Virus record (IMG/VR): IMGVR_UViG_3300024432_000052
Location: 1 to 29,976 of that record
Strand: one strand, 5' to 3'
DNA length: 29,976 nucleotides
From: a virus
The number at the start of each line of letters is the position of its first letter. Position 1 is the stretch's first letter. The notes beneath the pieces were generated by a model, which was not told the origin of the DNA, made no database searches, and worked only from the letters and a program-made list of their open reading frames with translations. A program made the translations under genes and the position numbers. Positions 7,168 to 29,515 of this stretch are shown here, one piece after another.

Positions 7168-7797
7168 TACTTCCTCGTTAGATTTGCTTTACGCTCAGCC
7201 TCTTTCTGCCCTATCCCCTCCCCCCAGAAATCCAAGAATAGCCGCTCGATAAACCAGGCGGGCTGTGATCGGAAGTCCTGGATTTTCCATCGCATTTTAC
7301 GACATAGATGGGTGACAGACATTCCCTCTGGGAGAGAAGAGTTTGTTTTATAGGCGACTTCAATCTGCGTCCGGAAATTCTTCGTCGGTTTCAGGATTGA
7401 GCCTGTCCAACACCTCCAGTATAAAGTCGGCGTCTTTCACACGCAGCTTCCCCAGATTGTCATTTGTTATAGGCAATGTCTTGCCATTTTTGCCTCGGAA
7501 TGTCCATGAGACAATCCCCATTGCCAGAGTTGAAACACGCAACAAACTGAAATTGGTATCCCGAACTTTGAAGTTTTGTCGCCTTTTTCCCCGGCGGTTA
7601 CTGGGCAATTCAGCCTCTTGCCGCAAGCCCAATTTCACCAACTCTTGCGCTTCGTTAAACGTTATCTCACGAACCGTAACCGTCATCCATTCAGGCCACC
7701 AATCGGCCTGAATAGTTTCAGTATCCAGATCAAACGGATTGTACTCTGCTGGCCTACTGCTTTCGGTAGCTTGCTCATCTTTGGCACTCACAATCAT
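7167..7797 (-). CDS. Tail assembly chaperone, +1 frameshifted long form (GT-like)
   Basis: The long product of the tail chaperone gene, read only if ribosomes shift frame. The first 141 codons are those of the short form. At GAA-UUU-CCG (minus strand, 7380-7372) a +1 slip lets the Phe tRNA move from UUU to UUC. Reading then continues as RTQIEVAYKTN and on to a TAA at 7169-7167 that overlaps the tape measure ATG. The extension is 68 residues, giving about 209 in total. It looks like real protein (basic, amphipathic, with a QPAWFIERLFLDFWGEG segment). An internal ATG at 7322 exists, but its Shine-Dalgarno tract abuts it with no spacing. The layout is that of lambda G/GT, although +1 is less common than -1. 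Confidence 0.7.
7360..7797 (-). CDS. Tail assembly chaperone, short form (G-like)
   Basis: A 145-residue protein between the major tail protein and the tape measure gene, the standard place for the chaperone that holds the tape measure protein during tail tube assembly. It has a compact N-terminal acidic part, then a TVREITFNEAQELVKLGLRQEAE segment in the style of gpG-like proteins, and ends in DEEFPDAD. The stop lies about 190 bases before the tape measure ATG, and that gap is filled by an open +1 frame described separately. The start is 7 bases after the stop of the major tail protein gene. Confidence 0.75.
   Translation of the reverse strand: MIVSAKDEQATESSRPAEYNPFDLDTETIQADWWPEWMTVTVREITFNEAQELVKLGLRQEAELPSNRRGKRRQNFKVRDTNFSLLRVSTLAMGIVSWTFRGKNGKTLPITNDNLGKLRVKDADFILEVLDRLNPETDEEFPDAD
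7372..7380 (-). other. Candidate +1 ribosomal frameshift site
   Basis: The minus strand reads GAA TTT CCG G. After pairing at UUU, a Phe tRNA can re-pair one base downstream at UUC, and the next codon becomes CGG. Influenza PA-X uses a comparable UUU-C slip. The +1 frame is open from just after a TGA about 60 bases upstream, so the site must lie in that interval. This is the only obviously slippery +1 heptamer I see there. A -2 shift would reach the same frame and cannot be excluded. Confidence 0.5.
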
Positions 7798-9237: not shown

Positions 9238-9864
9238 TCATTCTCCGTACAACTTCAATCGGACAGGTGTCTCCCGTTCATGGCACCGTTGCCGTTTCAC
9301 TCGTTTATCAGCCCAACGTTGTCGCCCACGCAACGGTTGCCGGTGTAACATATGAACACTATGCAGTATTGGCGTTACCCGATTATCACTGACCCATACC
9401 CCGTCACTATAGAGCGCGTCGTGAATTTCCCGGTACTCCATTTCCCCCTTGTGTTGGAATAACCGTTGGGGCCAGAACCTATGCCCGCCACCTAGCATAG
9501 TAAGCGACACCCTGAAGGCCGGAACGTCGGGTAACTGGTCTGGCCGGGGTAGGGGCGTCAGGAGCATTTCATCGGCGTCAATGATGAAATACCAGTCACC
9601 GTCATTGCCTATTAGATATTGATTACGCATGGTTTGTTCGTCTGGCCAGGGATGAGGGTTATGTTTAATATGGCAAGCGAAAGATTGTGCAATCTCTATC
9701 GTTCGATCTGAGCTTGTACCTAATTCACCCGGCATTTCGGCAATGCGTCCCTCTACCAAAACAATTTCATCCACATGGGACGCTATGCTCTCCAGGCAAC
9801 CGGGCAATAGTTCCTCTTCGTTATAGGCAATGATACAGGCTATCATGCGGCGCTTGGTACCCAT
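9238..9864 (-). CDS. Glycosyltransferase family 2
   Basis: A 208-residue GT-A fold enzyme that should transfer a sugar from a nucleotide-sugar donor. Visible family 2 hallmarks are the N-terminal IACIIAYNEEELLPGCLESI strand-loop-helix (nucleotide-binding region), a DEIVLVEG strand, a TIEIAQSF helix, and the metal-binding D-x-D as FIIDADEM near residues 93-100. The C-terminal half contains HRFWPQRLFQHKG and an EIHDALYSDG segment, close to what processive-type small GT2 enzymes carry. The acceptor cannot be told. The gene starts immediately after the stop of the preceding gene (TAA then ATG) and lies in an accessory block inside the neck-tail module. Candidate roles are glycosylating a virion protein or altering host surface glycans. 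Confidence 0.88.
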   Translation of the reverse strand: MGTKRRMIACIIAYNEEELLPGCLESIASHVDEIVLVEGRIAEMPGELGTSSDRTIEIAQSFACHIKHNPHPWPDEQTMRNQYLIGNDGDWYFIIDADEMLLTPLPRPDQLPDVPAFRVSLTMLGGGHRFWPQRLFQHKGEMEYREIHDALYSDGVWVSDNRVTPILHSVHMLHRQPLRGRQRWADKRVKRQRCHERETPVRLKLYGE

Positions 9865-13515: not shown

Positions 13516-14022
13516 TTAGTCAATCCATATATGGTAGATCATAGTCAAATCATCAACTGCAACAGCATTATAGGTGGATTGGTCTACCAGATAGGCATAG
13601 AACGTGCTGGGTGTTCCACCACGCAAATCAAGGCCAATATTCAACTCATCCACAGTGGCAATTTCTACCGTCCCTTCGTCACCGGTTGTAAACGTTTCGT
13701 AGGTTCCGGTGTTAATATCAATGCCCTTATTGCCCGGTGGCATCTTTAGCAAATCTGCTATCACCGCCGTAGCCCAAGCTGCATCATTGGCAATAGTGGA
13801 GGGCAGTCGCTTGAATATATACAACTTGAACGGATTGGTTTGTACGCCAGCATCGATTAGAGAAATTGCACGCAAAACACAACCATGCCAGGCTGTACCC
13901 AACGCTTTCGTCACAGTCTGCAATCCACCAACCACATCATATTGGGTATAGGCGCTTAGGGTCACTGTCAAAGGAACTGATATATCATGCCCTTGATTAT
14001 AGATGTCATATCGTTTTGGCAT
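13516..14022 (-). CDS. Hypothetical virion-associated protein
   Basis: A 168-residue beta-rich protein preceded by a good AGAGGTGA ribosome site. It contains ISVPLTVTLSAYTQYDVVGG, FKLYIFKRLPSTIANDAAW and an LTMIYHIWID end, a pattern seen in small structural proteins encoded after capsid genes. Its stop is two bases from the lectin-like start. It may form a base or decoration partner for that protein, but this is inference. Confidence 0.6.
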   Translation of the reverse strand: MPKRYDIYNQGHDISVPLTVTLSAYTQYDVVGGLQTVTKALGTAWHGCVLRAISLIDAGVQTNPFKLYIFKRLPSTIANDAAWATAVIADLLKMPPGNKGIDINTGTYETFTTGDEGTVEIATVDELNIGLDLRGGTPSTFYAYLVDQSTYNAVAVDDLTMIYHIWID

Positions 14023-14078
14023 TTTGTTTCACCTCTTGATTATAGGCAAAAGGGAAGGTTACCCTTCCCTATTACGGT

Positions 14079-24452: not shown

Positions 24453-24687
24453 TGGTGTATTCTTTCCAAACCTTACGCACGGCATCCAAAACCAAATACC
24501 CTAACAAAGAATACACGAAAATTACCGGTATCGCGAAAAGGACAGGCGTGCCCAAATAGTAATCCTCAAGAAACGCCAGTGCTATATAGATAACACCGAT
24601 AAGAATTATCAAACCACCGCCATCATCAAACAGGGTGGGCTTTACCTTAACCCGCCAGAACCATTTTGGAAATCCTAATATCTTCAT
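24445..24687 (-). CDS. Two-helix membrane protein
   Basis: An 80-residue protein. Residues about 25-42 (GLIILIGVIYIALAFL) and about 48-70 (PVLFAIPVIFVYSLLGYLVL) are membrane helices with a short acidic loop between them. The basic KPKWF-like N-terminus and KEYTNA C-terminus lie on the same side if it is a hairpin. Size and topology match a class II holin but also many unrelated phage membrane proteins. It overlaps the methyltransferase gene by four bases. Confidence 0.7.
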   Translation of the reverse strand: MKILGFPKWFWRVKVKPTLFDDGGGLIILIGVIYIALAFLEDYYLGTPVLFAIPVIFVYSLLGYLVLDAVRKVWKEYTNA

Positions 24688-25913
24688 ATGGTAAGCCTCG
24701 GTGTTAGTCCCATGTCGGATAATCGTTGTAGAGTGATGGCCACATACTTCGGCTCAATCTCCATGCCTCGGCCTATGCGCCCAATCTGCTCACAGGCAAC
24801 AATAGTCGTGCCAGAACCGAGGAACGGATCAAAAATGACGCCCATCGCCTTAGTCTTTTCAATCGTCCATGCGACTACTGCAACGGGTTTTTGTGTTGGG
24901 TGCAGATATTCACCGCGCTCGCTTTCTCGTGTTATCCCACCCCATTCGTGCCGAATTGCATATACGCCCCGGCCACAATTCGTCCACGCCAATTCACAAT
25001 CAGATAAAAAAGTACCAAATCTATCATCGGGCTTTTTTAACCAAACGAAAACTCCGCCTGGTGGCAGCCTATCGCAAAAATGATTCATTCCCCATAAGAC
25101 AATAATGGGATACCCTAAATATGGAACAGGGTTAAAAGGCACATCATCCCCTATCACATCTTCACGTTCTCTTCCTCGTGGGTGATTGCCAAATTTGCCA
25201 CCAGAAAAACGGCTTGCGTCCGCATTCCAATTCATCCCATACGGCGGATCAGTCACTACCGCATCCGCCTTCTCCCCATCCATCAATCGCCCCACATCCT
25301 CTTCACACGTCGAGTCACCGCATAAAATCCTATGCGAGCCGTTTCCGGTTTTGCTTTCCACCTCCCACACCTGCCCCCGCTTCACCTGCCAAACTTCCTG
25401 CAATTCAGCGGCACGATCAACTTGCGCCCCTGGGTCTGGTGTTGGCTCTTGCCCCATTCCCAAATCACGCAAAAGTTCGTCAAGTGAATCCCCATCCCAT
25501 CCAGTAGCCTCCATCAATGCCGTATCCGTAGCAGCTAAGTCTTGCAGCAATTCGGCTAACTGCTCATCATGCCATCCCCCGGCCATTGTGAGATTATTAT
25601 CGGCCACGATGTATGCCTGTAATTGTTCTGGCGTATATTCGCTTCCCCGCACAACCGGCACAAGCCAGTTGCCGTTCTCCAGGGTAACCCCTAGCGGCAT
25701 AGGCATCTGTTGCTGTTGCATAGAAGCCAGCGCCTTGACCCGGCCATGCCCGGCGGCCAGATAACCGGATCGTTCATCAATCATCACCGGCATTCTGTAT
25801 TCTAGCTTGTCTATGGAAACGGAAATTGCCCCGACATCGTGGCTCTTCGGATTATCAGGATGAAACCGCTCAAGCAAATCGGAGAGCGGCATGTATTCAA
25901 TGCGGATGGTCAT
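24684..25913 (-). CDS. ParB-like / DNA methyltransferase fusion
   Basis: A 409-residue protein starting at ATG 25913, which overlaps the sulfotransferase end by 17 bases (longer start at 25970 possible). Residues 1-100 are a ParB/Srx-like domain with an AGHGRVKAL motif (about 54-62). Residues about 195-409 are a beta-class DNA methyltransferase: ILCGDST, then motif IV DPPYG (about 222-226), HPTQKP (about 338) and motif I as DPFLGSGTT (about 362-370), followed by RIGRGMEIEPKYV. The order IV before I is that of the beta class, which methylates the amino group of A or C. No restriction enzyme is nearby, so it is probably an orphan used against host restriction or as a regulator. Confidence 0.9.
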   Translation of the reverse strand: MTIRIEYMPLSDLLERFHPDNPKSHDVGAISVSIDKLEYRMPVMIDERSGYLAAGHGRVKALASMQQQQMPMPLGVTLENGNWLVPVVRGSEYTPEQLQAYIVADNNLTMAGGWHDEQLAELLQDLAATDTALMEATGWDGDSLDELLRDLGMGQEPTPDPGAQVDRAAELQEVWQVKRGQVWEVESKTGNGSHRILCGDSTCEEDVGRLMDGEKADAVVTDPPYGMNWNADASRFSGGKFGNHPRGREREDVIGDDVPFNPVPYLGYPIIVLWGMNHFCDRLPPGGVFVWLKKPDDRFGTFLSDCELAWTNCGRGVYAIRHEWGGITRESERGEYLHPTQKPVAVVAWTIEKTKAMGVIFDPFLGSGTTIVACEQIGRIGRGMEIEPKYVAITLQRLSDMGLTPRLTI

Positions 25914-26553
25914 TACTGTATCCATCCATATCGCCGTCTTCCATGTACATCCGAACCATCCGTTCCACATCTTCCCCCGCTTGCTTTTGGAATCGCGCTT
26001 CCACCAGATGAAATCCCCCCACCCCGATATGCGCCAATACCCGCTTCACTGTACCATGTTCATCAGCGCACATGTCTTCATAGGTGATTTCCAGGGGGGC
26101 GATACCGCGTGATTGAAAATAGTTGCGCCAGTTATCAGCCAAGAGTTGCAAGTAGCGGATTTTGTTGTCAATGCCTTGTCGGTTGTATTCTAGGGGAATA
26201 TCCACCCGTTCTCCCCGGCACTGTGACCAGGTGCCCCCGGCCCAGACCCGTTGTAACGATACCGCTTGCCGGAGTTTGTCCTTCCGATCCAGGAACACCC
26301 ATTGCAGAGGTTCCATCAACCTGGCATGGGCGTTCAAATAGGCCGCCGGATGAAGGTTAATTTTAGCGATATGATGCCAAAAGATTTTAACGGCCAAGAC
26401 ACCGTTGGCACTAGCTCGCCACATATGGGCAAACCAATCATGGTCGTAGCGCTCCAGGTATTCACGGGGCGTTCCGGCGTTGCAACTGCGCAACCAATGG
26501 CAGAGCCAATTACTGCCGGTACGGGGGGATGCAGCTATAATGTAGTTAGACAT
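25897..26553 (-). CDS. Stf0-like sulfotransferase
   Basis: A 218-residue PAPS-dependent sulfotransferase. The N-terminal strand-loop IIAASPRTGSNWLCHWL is the 5'-phosphosulfate loop of this fold. The GTPREYLERYD stretch that follows (E31) matches the G-x-P-x-E-F motif of mycobacterial trehalose sulfotransferase Stf0, whose Glu is the general base. The FLDRKDKLRQAVSLQRVW stretch (about 88-104) matches the 3'-phosphate loop with its Arg and Ser. YEDMCAD (about 158) is the usual C-terminal landmark. It sits in the late operon between small membrane proteins and the methyltransferase, sharing an 8-base overlap with the first. Its target cannot be deduced; candidates are a host envelope sugar or a phage glycan. 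Confidence 0.85.
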   Translation of the reverse strand: MSNYIIAASPRTGSNWLCHWLRSCNAGTPREYLERYDHDWFAHMWRASANGVLAVKIFWHHIAKINLHPAAYLNAHARLMEPLQWVFLDRKDKLRQAVSLQRVWAGGTWSQCRGERVDIPLEYNRQGIDNKIRYLQLLADNWRNYFQSRGIAPLEITYEDMCADEHGTVKRVLAHIGVGGFHLVEARFQKQAGEDVERMVRMYMEDGDMDGYSNDHPH

Positions 26554-26732: not shown

Positions 26733-27002
26733 CTATCCCTTCTTCCTACGATTACACAACCGGATCAATTGTTCGCTACTGACACGAGTATCATGAGCCA
26801 TATGTACCAACATGCCCACACCTTCGCCTATAGCTGCCAACGCTATCGCCTGGAACGTCCCAGTGATGAATATCACTGCACCCAAAATAGGTGAATCTAG
26901 GGCTATCAAATAGGACAACACCACCACACCGACAAAAGCGAACCCGGCCAGTGATTTACAGGCCAGACTGAATACGGATAAAATAGGATAGGCTCTTAAC
27001 AT
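26733..27002 (-). CDS. Two-helix membrane protein, first gene of the late operon
   Basis: An 89-residue protein with two clear membrane helices (about 12-35, SLAGFAFVGVVVLSYLIAL, and about 37-60, PILGAVIFITGTFQAIALAAIG) and a basic cytoplasmic tail (NRRKKG). The form is holin-like. It starts 16 bases after the end of a terminator U-tract, with a GGGTGA ribosome site close to the ATG. There is therefore no room for its own promoter, and it must depend on read-through or on processing of upstream RNA. Confidence 0.7.
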   Translation of the reverse strand: MLRAYPILSVFSLACKSLAGFAFVGVVVLSYLIALDSPILGAVIFITGTFQAIALAAIGEGVGMLVHMAHDTRVSSEQLIRLCNRRKKG

Positions 27003-27018
27003 ATGTCACCCACAAACG

Positions 27019-27043
27019 AAAAAACCCGCCGGTATACGGTGGG
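27019..27043 (-). terminator. Intrinsic terminator before the late operon
   Basis: On the minus strand, CCCACCG and CGGCGGG can pair around a TATAC loop (one A-C mismatch), followed immediately by six T residues (27024-27019). The mismatch makes it imperfect, so partial termination is plausible. On the plus strand the same hairpin pairs fully with one G-U but has no good U-tract. Confidence 0.6.
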
Positions 27044-27110
27044 CCTTTCCGATCTGAAAGGAGAAACTACGAATGAAACGTCTTCTTGCCGTAGGCACGC
27101 ACCAATGCCT
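27019..27110 (-). ncRNA. Putative leader RNA (lambda 6S-like)
   Basis: About 92 nt from the predicted start near 27110 to the terminator. It begins with an AGGCA...TGCCT hairpin (27110-27093, 8-base loop). It then has a CCTTTC...GAAAGG hairpin (27061-27044, 6-base loop) and ends in the GC hairpin and T6. No reading frame with a ribosome site runs along this strand. The layout promoter - short structured RNA - terminator - first late gene is that of the lambda pR'/6S/tR' region. This is inferred from the sequence only. Confidence 0.55.
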
Positions 27111-27116
27111 ATGGGT

Positions 27117-27145
27117 AGCATAACAAACATAATAATGAAAGTCAA
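27117..27145 (-). promoter_or_regulatory. Strong sigma70-type promoter for the leader RNA / late operon
   Basis: The minus strand reads TTGACT at 27145-27140 and TATGCT at 27122-27117, with a 17-base spacer. The -35 box matches consensus at 5 of 6 positions and the -10 box at 4 of 6. No other promoter of similar quality lies upstream of the late genes. It lies in the gap after the 60-residue gene. Confidence 0.65.
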
Positions 27146-27169
27146 GAAAGTGGGCGCAAATTCAGACGC

Positions 27170-27352
27170 TTATCCTTTCTCTCCCCACCCAGCACAGTCC
27201 ATAATCAATTCCATTGCATCGCCTTGGGTTAAATGGGCATCGATAACACATATTGATGTAGTACCATCCTCTAGCAAAACAATTCTCAGCACAGCATAAT
27301 AGAGTACATCGTTTACCATATACCGGAATAATTTAAATTGAGGGTCACTCAT
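27170..27352 (-). CDS. Small hypothetical protein
   Basis: A 60-residue protein with a beta-rich sequence (FKLFRYMVNDVLYYAVLRIVLL) and a C-terminal helix (GDAMELIMDCAGWGEKG). ATG 27352 overlaps the stop of the zinc-ribbon gene by 4 bases, so it is translated with it. Unknown function. Confidence 0.6.
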   Translation of the reverse strand: MSDPQFKLFRYMVNDVLYYAVLRIVLLEDGTTSICVIDAHLTQGDAMELIMDCAGWGEKG

Positions 27353-27708
27353 CCTTTATCCCTTCGCCTATACCCTCTAGGCTTCGCCCCGATCCGTTCC
27401 TCATAATGCACCCTGCCCCGTCCATTTTTGCACCATTTGCACTGTGAATGCAATCCTTGTTTGCCATCCTGGTTACGGGAAAAGAATGCTGAGGTAGGGG
27501 GGAACCATTCACCGCAAGCACCACAGAATTTCAAGGTCTCTTGAAGAAGCTGTCCATCGCTATCATGCGATGTGCGCTTTTTCATCCACCGGGGCGCGAA
27601 ATATCGACTCTCTTCGAGGATGCAACCAGGAATATATTTTTTAATCATAAGGAAGACGGCGGCCCACTCGGTGAGACGCAGCTTATAGGGGATCATCTCT
27701 TCTTTCAT
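27349..27708 (-). CDS. Zinc-ribbon regulator-like protein, leaderless
   Basis: About 119 residues from ATG 27708 (a GTG start 6 bases upstream is possible). The C-terminal 60 residues hold CGACGEWFPPTSAFF and a GLHSQCKWC pair, a Zn ribbon with the P-T-x-FF insertion common in phage DNA-binding and HNH-type proteins. Then comes a very basic tail (RGRVHYEERIGAKPRGYRRRDKG). The N-terminal half (YKLRLTEWAAVFLMIKKYIPG) is helical. It has no Shine-Dalgarno site; a TATACT box sits 6 bases before the ATG, so the message seems to start at the ATG. A DNA-binding regulatory role is inferred. Confidence 0.7.
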   Translation of the reverse strand: MKEEMIPYKLRLTEWAAVFLMIKKYIPGCILEESRYFAPRWMKKRTSHDSDGQLLQETLKFCGACGEWFPPTSAFFSRNQDGKQGLHSQCKWCKNGRGRVHYEERIGAKPRGYRRRDKG

Positions 27709-27714
27709 GCCCAC

Positions 27715-27723
27715 AGTATACCA
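27715..27723 (-). promoter_or_regulatory. Extended -10 promoter for the leaderless regulator
   Basis: The minus strand reads TGG-TATACT, an extended -10 box. The start point would be 7 bases after it, which is the A of ATG 27708. The -35 region (GTAAAG) is poor and overlaps the -35 of the plus-strand promoter. Confidence 0.55.
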
Positions 27724-27738
27724 CAGAATTATTGGGGC

Positions 27739-27767
27739 TTTACAAATCGATCTATCTGTGAGACAAT
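27739..27767 (+). promoter_or_regulatory. Early promoter copy 1
   Basis: TTTACA (27739-27744), a 17-base spacer, then GACAAT (27762-27767) with an upstream TGA that gives an extended -10. The 17 bases TCTGTGAGACAATGTAG (27755-27771) are identical in copy 2. It reads into the NUMOD4-like gene. Confidence 0.6.
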
Positions 27768-27789
27768 GTAGTCATATCCGGGAGGCCAT

Positions 27790-28053: not shown

Positions 28054-28082
28054 TTGACATTCTATTGGTTCTGTGAGACAAT
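28054..28082 (+). promoter_or_regulatory. Early promoter copy 2
   Basis: Consensus TTGACA (28054-28059), a 17-base spacer, and GACAAT (28077-28082) inside the shared 17-mer (28070-28086). It drives the coiled-coil gene, which begins 34 bases downstream of the -10 box with a TAGGAG ribosome site. Confidence 0.65.
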
Positions 28083-28115
28083 GTAGATAGAGAAAAACAC
28101 ATAGGAGTAAGCCGA

Positions 28116-28790: not shown

Positions 28791-28799
28791 CCACCACCA

Positions 28800-28852
28800 A
28801 CCCTGAGCGAAGAGCGTCCCCGGCGTCGCGCCGGGGCAGGGTCTTGAGCGAA
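28800..28852 (+). repeat. Intergenic nested-hairpin element, copy 1
   Basis: ACCCTG (28800-28805) pairs with CAGGGT (28837-28842). Inside is a perfect 8-bp hairpin CCCCGGCG-TCG-CGCCGGGG (28818-28836). Outside are direct repeats TGAGCGAA (28804-28811 and 28845-28852). No T-tract follows, so it is not a normal terminator. It fills the gap before the 74-residue gene. Confidence 0.75.
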
Positions 28853-28877
28853 CGCACATAACAATAGAGCGAATGAA

Positions 28878-29102: not shown

Positions 29103-29109
29103 TCATAAC

Positions 29110-29161
29110 ACCCTGGCCAGAGCACACCCCGGTGCAACTCCGGGGCAGGATCTTGAGCAGC
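29110..29161 (+). repeat. Intergenic nested-hairpin element, copy 2
   Basis: ACCCTG (29110-29115) and CAGGAT (29146-29151), with the inner 19-mer CCCCGGTGCAACTCCGGGG (29127-29145) of the same length as in copies 1 and 3. Six G-C pairs are kept. It is the most diverged copy; the outer stem has one mismatch. It ends next to an alternative upstream ATG of the following gene. Confidence 0.65.
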
Positions 29162-29426: not shown

Positions 29427-29433
29427 TCCCCCT

Positions 29434-29486
29434 ACCCTGAGCGAAGAGCGCTCCCGGTATCGCGCCGGGGCAGGGTCTTGATCGAA
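29434..29486 (+). repeat. Intergenic nested-hairpin element, copy 3
   Basis: ACCCTG (29434-29439) and CAGGGT (29471-29476) flank the inner 19-mer TCCCGGTATCGCGCCGGGG (29452-29470). Compared with copy 1, the first and seventh bases change C to T, which keeps pairing as G-U. The flank reads TGAGCGAA and TGATCGAA. It lies before the acidic protein gene. Confidence 0.75.
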
Positions 29487-29515
29487 CGAATACACAGCAT
29501 AATGGAGCAAACCGA

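Follow-up and report, generated by a model that had tools for sequence, protein, structure and literature searches.

In an uncultured virus, the run of late (structural) genes, ∼27 kb on the minus strand, is preceded by a strong candidate promoter, a predicted short RNA and an intrinsic terminator, set in that order and separated from the first late gene by a promoter-free gap of 16 nt. A similar module is present in two relatives, G001 and the more distant L053. On sequence grounds this segment is best read as a Q-type late switch or a leader attenuator, and it likely gates the late genes; for the more specific proposal, a late-gene leader that would act as a Q-type ‘start, stop, read through’ switch, we put the chances at about even. 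The window, by which we mean the whole stretch of DNA analysed, is a virus record from IMG/VR; it has 29,976 bases and lacks end repeats. It gave no megablast match to known phages. Some relatives of its terminase (48–55% identity) lie on contigs assigned by binning to Anaerolineales and other Chloroflexota, and the host is likely to be a Chloroflexota bacterium. Leftward genes occupy the minus strand from 27714 to the left end and rightward genes run from 27790 onward, while the early region lies beyond the right edge (29976), outside the record.

The candidate late promoter, TTGACT-N17-TATGCT with an extended −10 (TGTTATGCT), lies at 27117–27145 on the minus strand and is present as originally predicted, with TTGACT at 27145–27140, a 17-nt spacer, TATGCT at 27122–27117 and the TG of the extended −10. 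In an approximate sigma-70 matrix scan it was third-best on the whole minus strand with a score of 13.1; in the positive control, lambda pR′ ranked first in its own region with a score of 11.1. The predicted start site is ∼27111 on the minus strand. As to a Q binding element between the −35 and −10, a TTATG direct repeat (9 bp apart) occupies the spacer and −10; it is low-complexity, and none was seen in the G001 spacer. An exact-match scan of viral contigs for the promoter sequence returned no matches.

The terminator (27019–27043, minus strand) also proved to be as described, with a stem, CCCACCG-TATAC-CGGCGGG, that carries one A–C mismatch (27043–27025) and is followed by T6 (27024–27019). 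Its d-score of 10.2 is the best among the few hairpin/T-tract sites of the minus strand (the runner-up, at 8.8, has only T4), and it is the only such site with T5 or more; the segment alone folds with z = −2.7. The first gene begins 16 nt past it, as claimed, with an ATG at 27002. This ORF (26733–27002, minus strand) has a weakly positive codon score and encodes a predicted membrane protein of 89 aa, for which there was no family match and no relative in a single-sequence pattern search. The pairing of promoter and terminator at 27145–27019 is rare in shuffles: a promoter 20–150 nt ahead of a terminator appeared in four of 60 whole-strand dinucleotide shuffles (two of 60 with an extended −10), and reshuffling the gap itself gave the combination 5 times in 4000.

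The claim that there is no room for another promoter is correct for the 16 nt between terminator and first gene; a weaker candidate, GTGACA-18-TATTTT (27009–26980, 9/12), nevertheless overlaps the start of that gene. The late genes might use this site, or a promoter inside the first genes, with the match at 27117–27145 being fortuitous and the terminator only insulating the genes upstream. Promoter-like sites are indeed common, 25 on the minus strand versus 24 in shuffles under the same rule. However, the module promoter ranks third on its strand whereas the overlapping candidate ranks 21st, and G001 and L053 carry similar modules; we consider this explanation improbable.

The RNA predicted to be made from this promoter is about 93 nt long (27018–27111, minus strand) and folds at −29.9 kcal/mol (z = −2.2 versus shuffles); an Rfam search of the whole window returned nothing at gathering score. 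Three hairpins were originally proposed. The 5′-terminal one, UAGGCAU-UGGUGC-GUGCCUA (27092–27111, minus strand), has 7 bp and a 6-nt loop and is located at the predicted start site; hairpins as stable occur at about 11% of random positions. We rejected it as a conserved feature of the group, as it was found in four of five modules, was missing from the fifth and has a substantial background rate. The middle hairpin, CCTTTC-AGATCG-GAAAGG (27044–27061, minus strand), is less certain, because its 3′ arm can alternatively pair with the U-tract, and in the minimum-energy fold this GGAAAGG pairing is preferred. The strand opposite the short RNA carries a 16-codon ORF, MKRLLAVGTHQCLWVA (27074–27124, plus strand), with a good Shine–Dalgarno sequence (GAAAGGAG); it is a possible gene, but was set aside with a codon score near zero. 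A 98-aa plus-strand ORF (27003–27299) was likewise dropped on codon score.

Competing pairings in the window RNA would suit a cis-acting leader in which the RNA itself decides, for example through pairing of GGAAAGG with CCTTTC or with the U-tract, or through a bound ligand or protein, and in which no polymerase-modifying factor takes part. In G001 the U-tract likewise pairs with an upstream arm. Nevertheless, neither alternative pairing disrupts the terminator stem itself, the downstream genes differ between the phages and so offer no common regulated gene, and the absence of an Rfam match also argues against such a leader, to which we give only a slight chance.

The nearest relative found, G001 (locus L092), is 46,825 bp long and is taken to be circular because of its 127-bp end repeat. 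Its capsid and tail proteins are mostly 30–62% identical to those of the window (portal 58%, capsid protein 48%, tail protein 62%, other structural genes lower). Its large terminase (L092 8634–9986, plus strand) is not detectably related to that of the window, whereas the two phages have portal, capsid and tail genes in common; the sequences indicate terminase exchange between otherwise related phages. The G001 module occupies a 328-nt gap ahead of a proteasome-like gene, the small terminase and the large terminase; the two modules precede different genes. Its promoter, TTGCAA-17-TATATT (L092 7411–7439), is fifth-best on its late strand. At the predicted start stands a hairpin, GCGGCGC-AAUCUC-GUGCCGU, with the same geometry of 7 bp and a 6-nt loop as in the window. 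The terminator hairpin, CGCCTGAT-GGTTA-ATCGGGCG-TTTT, ends at 7531; it is the weaker of the two by d-score (about 0), because its T-tract has only four bases. By the same measure, start and hairpin end lie 85 nt apart in both phages, and in G001 the next start codon follows 27 nt on. For the G001 module RNA the fold has z = −5.6. Between the window and G001 RNAs there is no significant sequence similarity, and the likeness is therefore one of layout and geometry rather than a demonstration of common ancestry. Elsewhere in G001, a leftward promoter candidate and a leftward terminator just past the zinc-ribbon gene (L092 5664–5573, minus strand) would yield an RNA of ∼50 nt that runs against the late direction.

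L053 has the same arrangement inside its structural region, with a perfect TTGACA-17-TATAAT promoter and extended −10, 100 nt from start to terminator hairpin end and a gene beginning 24 nt beyond that. When 1.2 Mb of related loci were searched for complete modules (promoter score of 10.5 or higher, 60–130 nt, terminator, ORF within 10–45 nt), three were found on the late strand, none on the opposite strand and none in three shuffles; the rule was set after the window element had been seen, and without the window the count is two versus none. Another relative, L106, has a strong terminator just ahead of a small gene and TerS, with no intervening promoter detected. The module is absent from the relatives L104 and L107, which counts against the proposed switch, as do the lack of sequence similarity between the window and G001 modules and the different genes that these precede.

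In the window the module stands ahead of the structural run, as had been claimed, but not at the head of the leftward unit, since two co-directional genes with a candidate promoter of their own precede it on the minus strand. Directly upstream is a 60-aa gene (27170–27352, minus strand), an ORF with a positive codon score. It is preceded by a gene for a zinc-ribbon (CxxC...CxxC) protein (27349–27714, minus strand), which has PHROG matches to endonuclease VII/HNH-like zinc ribbons and 46% identity to L092:5199–5546; the G001 homologue opens the late-direction unit, right after the divergent junction. The candidate promoter of the window gene (27715–27740, minus strand), with an extended −10 (TGGTATACT; −10 at 27720–27715), also sits at the divergent junction, and has the fourth-best score on the minus strand in the matrix scan. 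It is by its position and its sharing with G001 that the zinc-ribbon protein becomes a speculative candidate for the regulator (antiterminator). A single-sequence pattern search for its relatives found none, a two-sequence alignment recovered only G001, and the predicted structure was unusable (pLDDT 41). On the plus strand of this region, the third-best promoter candidate of that strand (26955–26984) and its top-scoring hairpin/T5 site (27551–27578, within the zinc-ribbon gene) might delimit a transcript antisense to both that gene and the 60-aa gene.

The original prediction had suggested that a Q-like or other antiterminator gene be sought. None was found. The Q families PF03589, PF06530 and PF06576 had no member in the window, nor in any of five related records, circular G001 among them, although the E. 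coli control passed the cut-off. Q proteins are diverse. The window is a fragment that does not extend into the early region, so that a read-through factor may simply be absent from the record. Among 20 early-region proteins of G001, none matched an antitermination family. The ∼24 bases that follow the −10 were inspected by eye for a −10-like pause motif (derived from E. coli sigma-70), and no hexamer had A at position 2 and T at position 6. The lambda-like reading is partly supported: the layout of promoter, short RNA, terminator and late genes is borne out in the window, with similar layouts in G001 and L053.

The main rival to a late switch is that the late genes are fed by constant leakage, with no regulator. 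The terminator would then end the zinc-ribbon/60-aa transcript and trim transcripts from the module promoter, leaving the short RNA as a by-product. The presence of two co-directional genes upstream is consistent with this, as is the failure to find an antiterminator in the window or the five related records. Because the terminator is only moderate (−8.0 kcal/mol, with its single mismatch), it could simply leak, and its U-tract can be drawn into pairing with the upstream GGAAAGG. Yet a strong promoter ahead of the terminator instead of behind it, an order that recurs in G001 and L053, would be an odd design for mere leakage. We regard leakage without a regulator as rather unlikely, though less so than the alternatives considered above.

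A strong promoter firing into a terminator just ahead of genes makes sense if read-through is regulated, and the switch that we favour would work as follows. Host RNA polymerase would start at ∼27111 from the sigma-70 promoter, make the RNA of about 93 nt with its 5′-end hairpin and mostly stop at the terminator, 16 nt ahead of the first late gene. The late genes would come on once polymerase is brought to pass the terminator, most probably by an antitermination factor that the phage encodes and makes at an earlier stage; one speculative candidate for this factor is the zinc-ribbon protein, whose gene lies just upstream. As neither a Q homologue nor a minimal pause motif was found, what we infer is control of read-through rather than lambda-type Q control. 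It is doubtful that a whole group of phages, probably of Chloroflexota, regulates its late genes through a promoter, a 5′-hairpin RNA and a terminator passed with the aid of an antiterminator unrelated to known Q, possibly the zinc-ribbon protein encoded at the divergent junction.

This would be a known kind of control in a new setting. If the proposed switch is real, ‘start, stop, read through’ late control extends from lambdoid phages to uncultured ones whose hosts are probably Chloroflexota, and there uses a different antiterminator. The layout, a strong promoter, about 85–100 nt, a terminator and a gene 20–30 nt on, can be searched for in other viral contigs, and the module is a defined DNA segment suited to reporter testing.

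Several other elements of the window were recorded. The late run includes a ParB-like domain fused to a DNA methyltransferase (24684–25970, minus strand), upstream of the terminase genes, and a Stf0-type sulfotransferase and a family 2 glycosyltransferase (25897–26553 and 9238–9864, minus strand). Its largest gap without an assigned gene, 192 nt at 7168–7359 (minus strand), is flanked by a small tail gene and a tape-measure-like gene, where a frameshifted tail-assembly chaperone would be expected. A terminator-like hairpin, GGGAAGGGTAACCTTCCC, with T4 (14052–14069, minus strand), lies inside the late run without a promoter, 29 nt ahead of the gene at 14022–13516. On the early side, two rightward promoters (TTTACA/TTGACA-17-GACAAT; 27739–27771 and 28054–28086, plus strand) share an identical 17-nt stretch over the −10, TCTGTGAGACAATGTAG, possibly an operator or a phage-specific promoter motif; an exact-match scan of viral contigs did not find this motif elsewhere. 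Farther right, a ∼60-nt hairpin element (CCCTGAGCGAAGAGCG...GCCGGGGCAGGGTCTTGAGCG) occurs in three copies (28794–28854, 29108–29158 and 29428–29488, plus strand) that fall in successive intergenic gaps of the early genes; it may serve in RNA processing or antitermination, or be a repeat element.

Among known systems, the closest comparison is with the lambda pR′–tR′/6S RNA switch and its Q protein (and that of phage 21), in which a strong constitutive-type promoter, a short RNA, an intrinsic terminator and the late genes follow one another as they do in the window. In both, the gap between terminator and first gene (16 nt in the window) is devoid of a promoter. The short RNA is about 93 nt in the window versus roughly 190 nt in lambda, and in the window, unlike lambda, two other genes separate the promoter from the divergent junction. 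Lambdoid Q binds between the −35 and −10 and joins polymerase paused at an early −10-like sequence (PMC6606751); unlike lambda, the window has no detected Q homologue, and its first ∼24 bases of transcript lack a −10-like pause motif. The window does have the defining order of a sigma-70 promoter and then an intrinsic terminator ahead of the first late gene; membership of the lambda pR′–tR′ family is not established, but a functional likeness is plausible, and we rate it at even odds. In Stx phages, a stable regulatory RNA, StxS, comes from between the late promoter and terminator (pR′–tR′; reviewed in PMC7873438), the likeness with the predicted short RNA of the window being one of position. 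In Pseudomonas aeruginosa, AlpA, which does not resemble Q in sequence, does a Q-type job (PMC7969949). It regulates lysis genes of a bacterium, unlike the phage setting of the window, but its alpB promoter and terminator tB (PMC7969949, PMC9371919) have the same arrangement as the module described here, a promoter and then, directly before the first gene, an intrinsic terminator.
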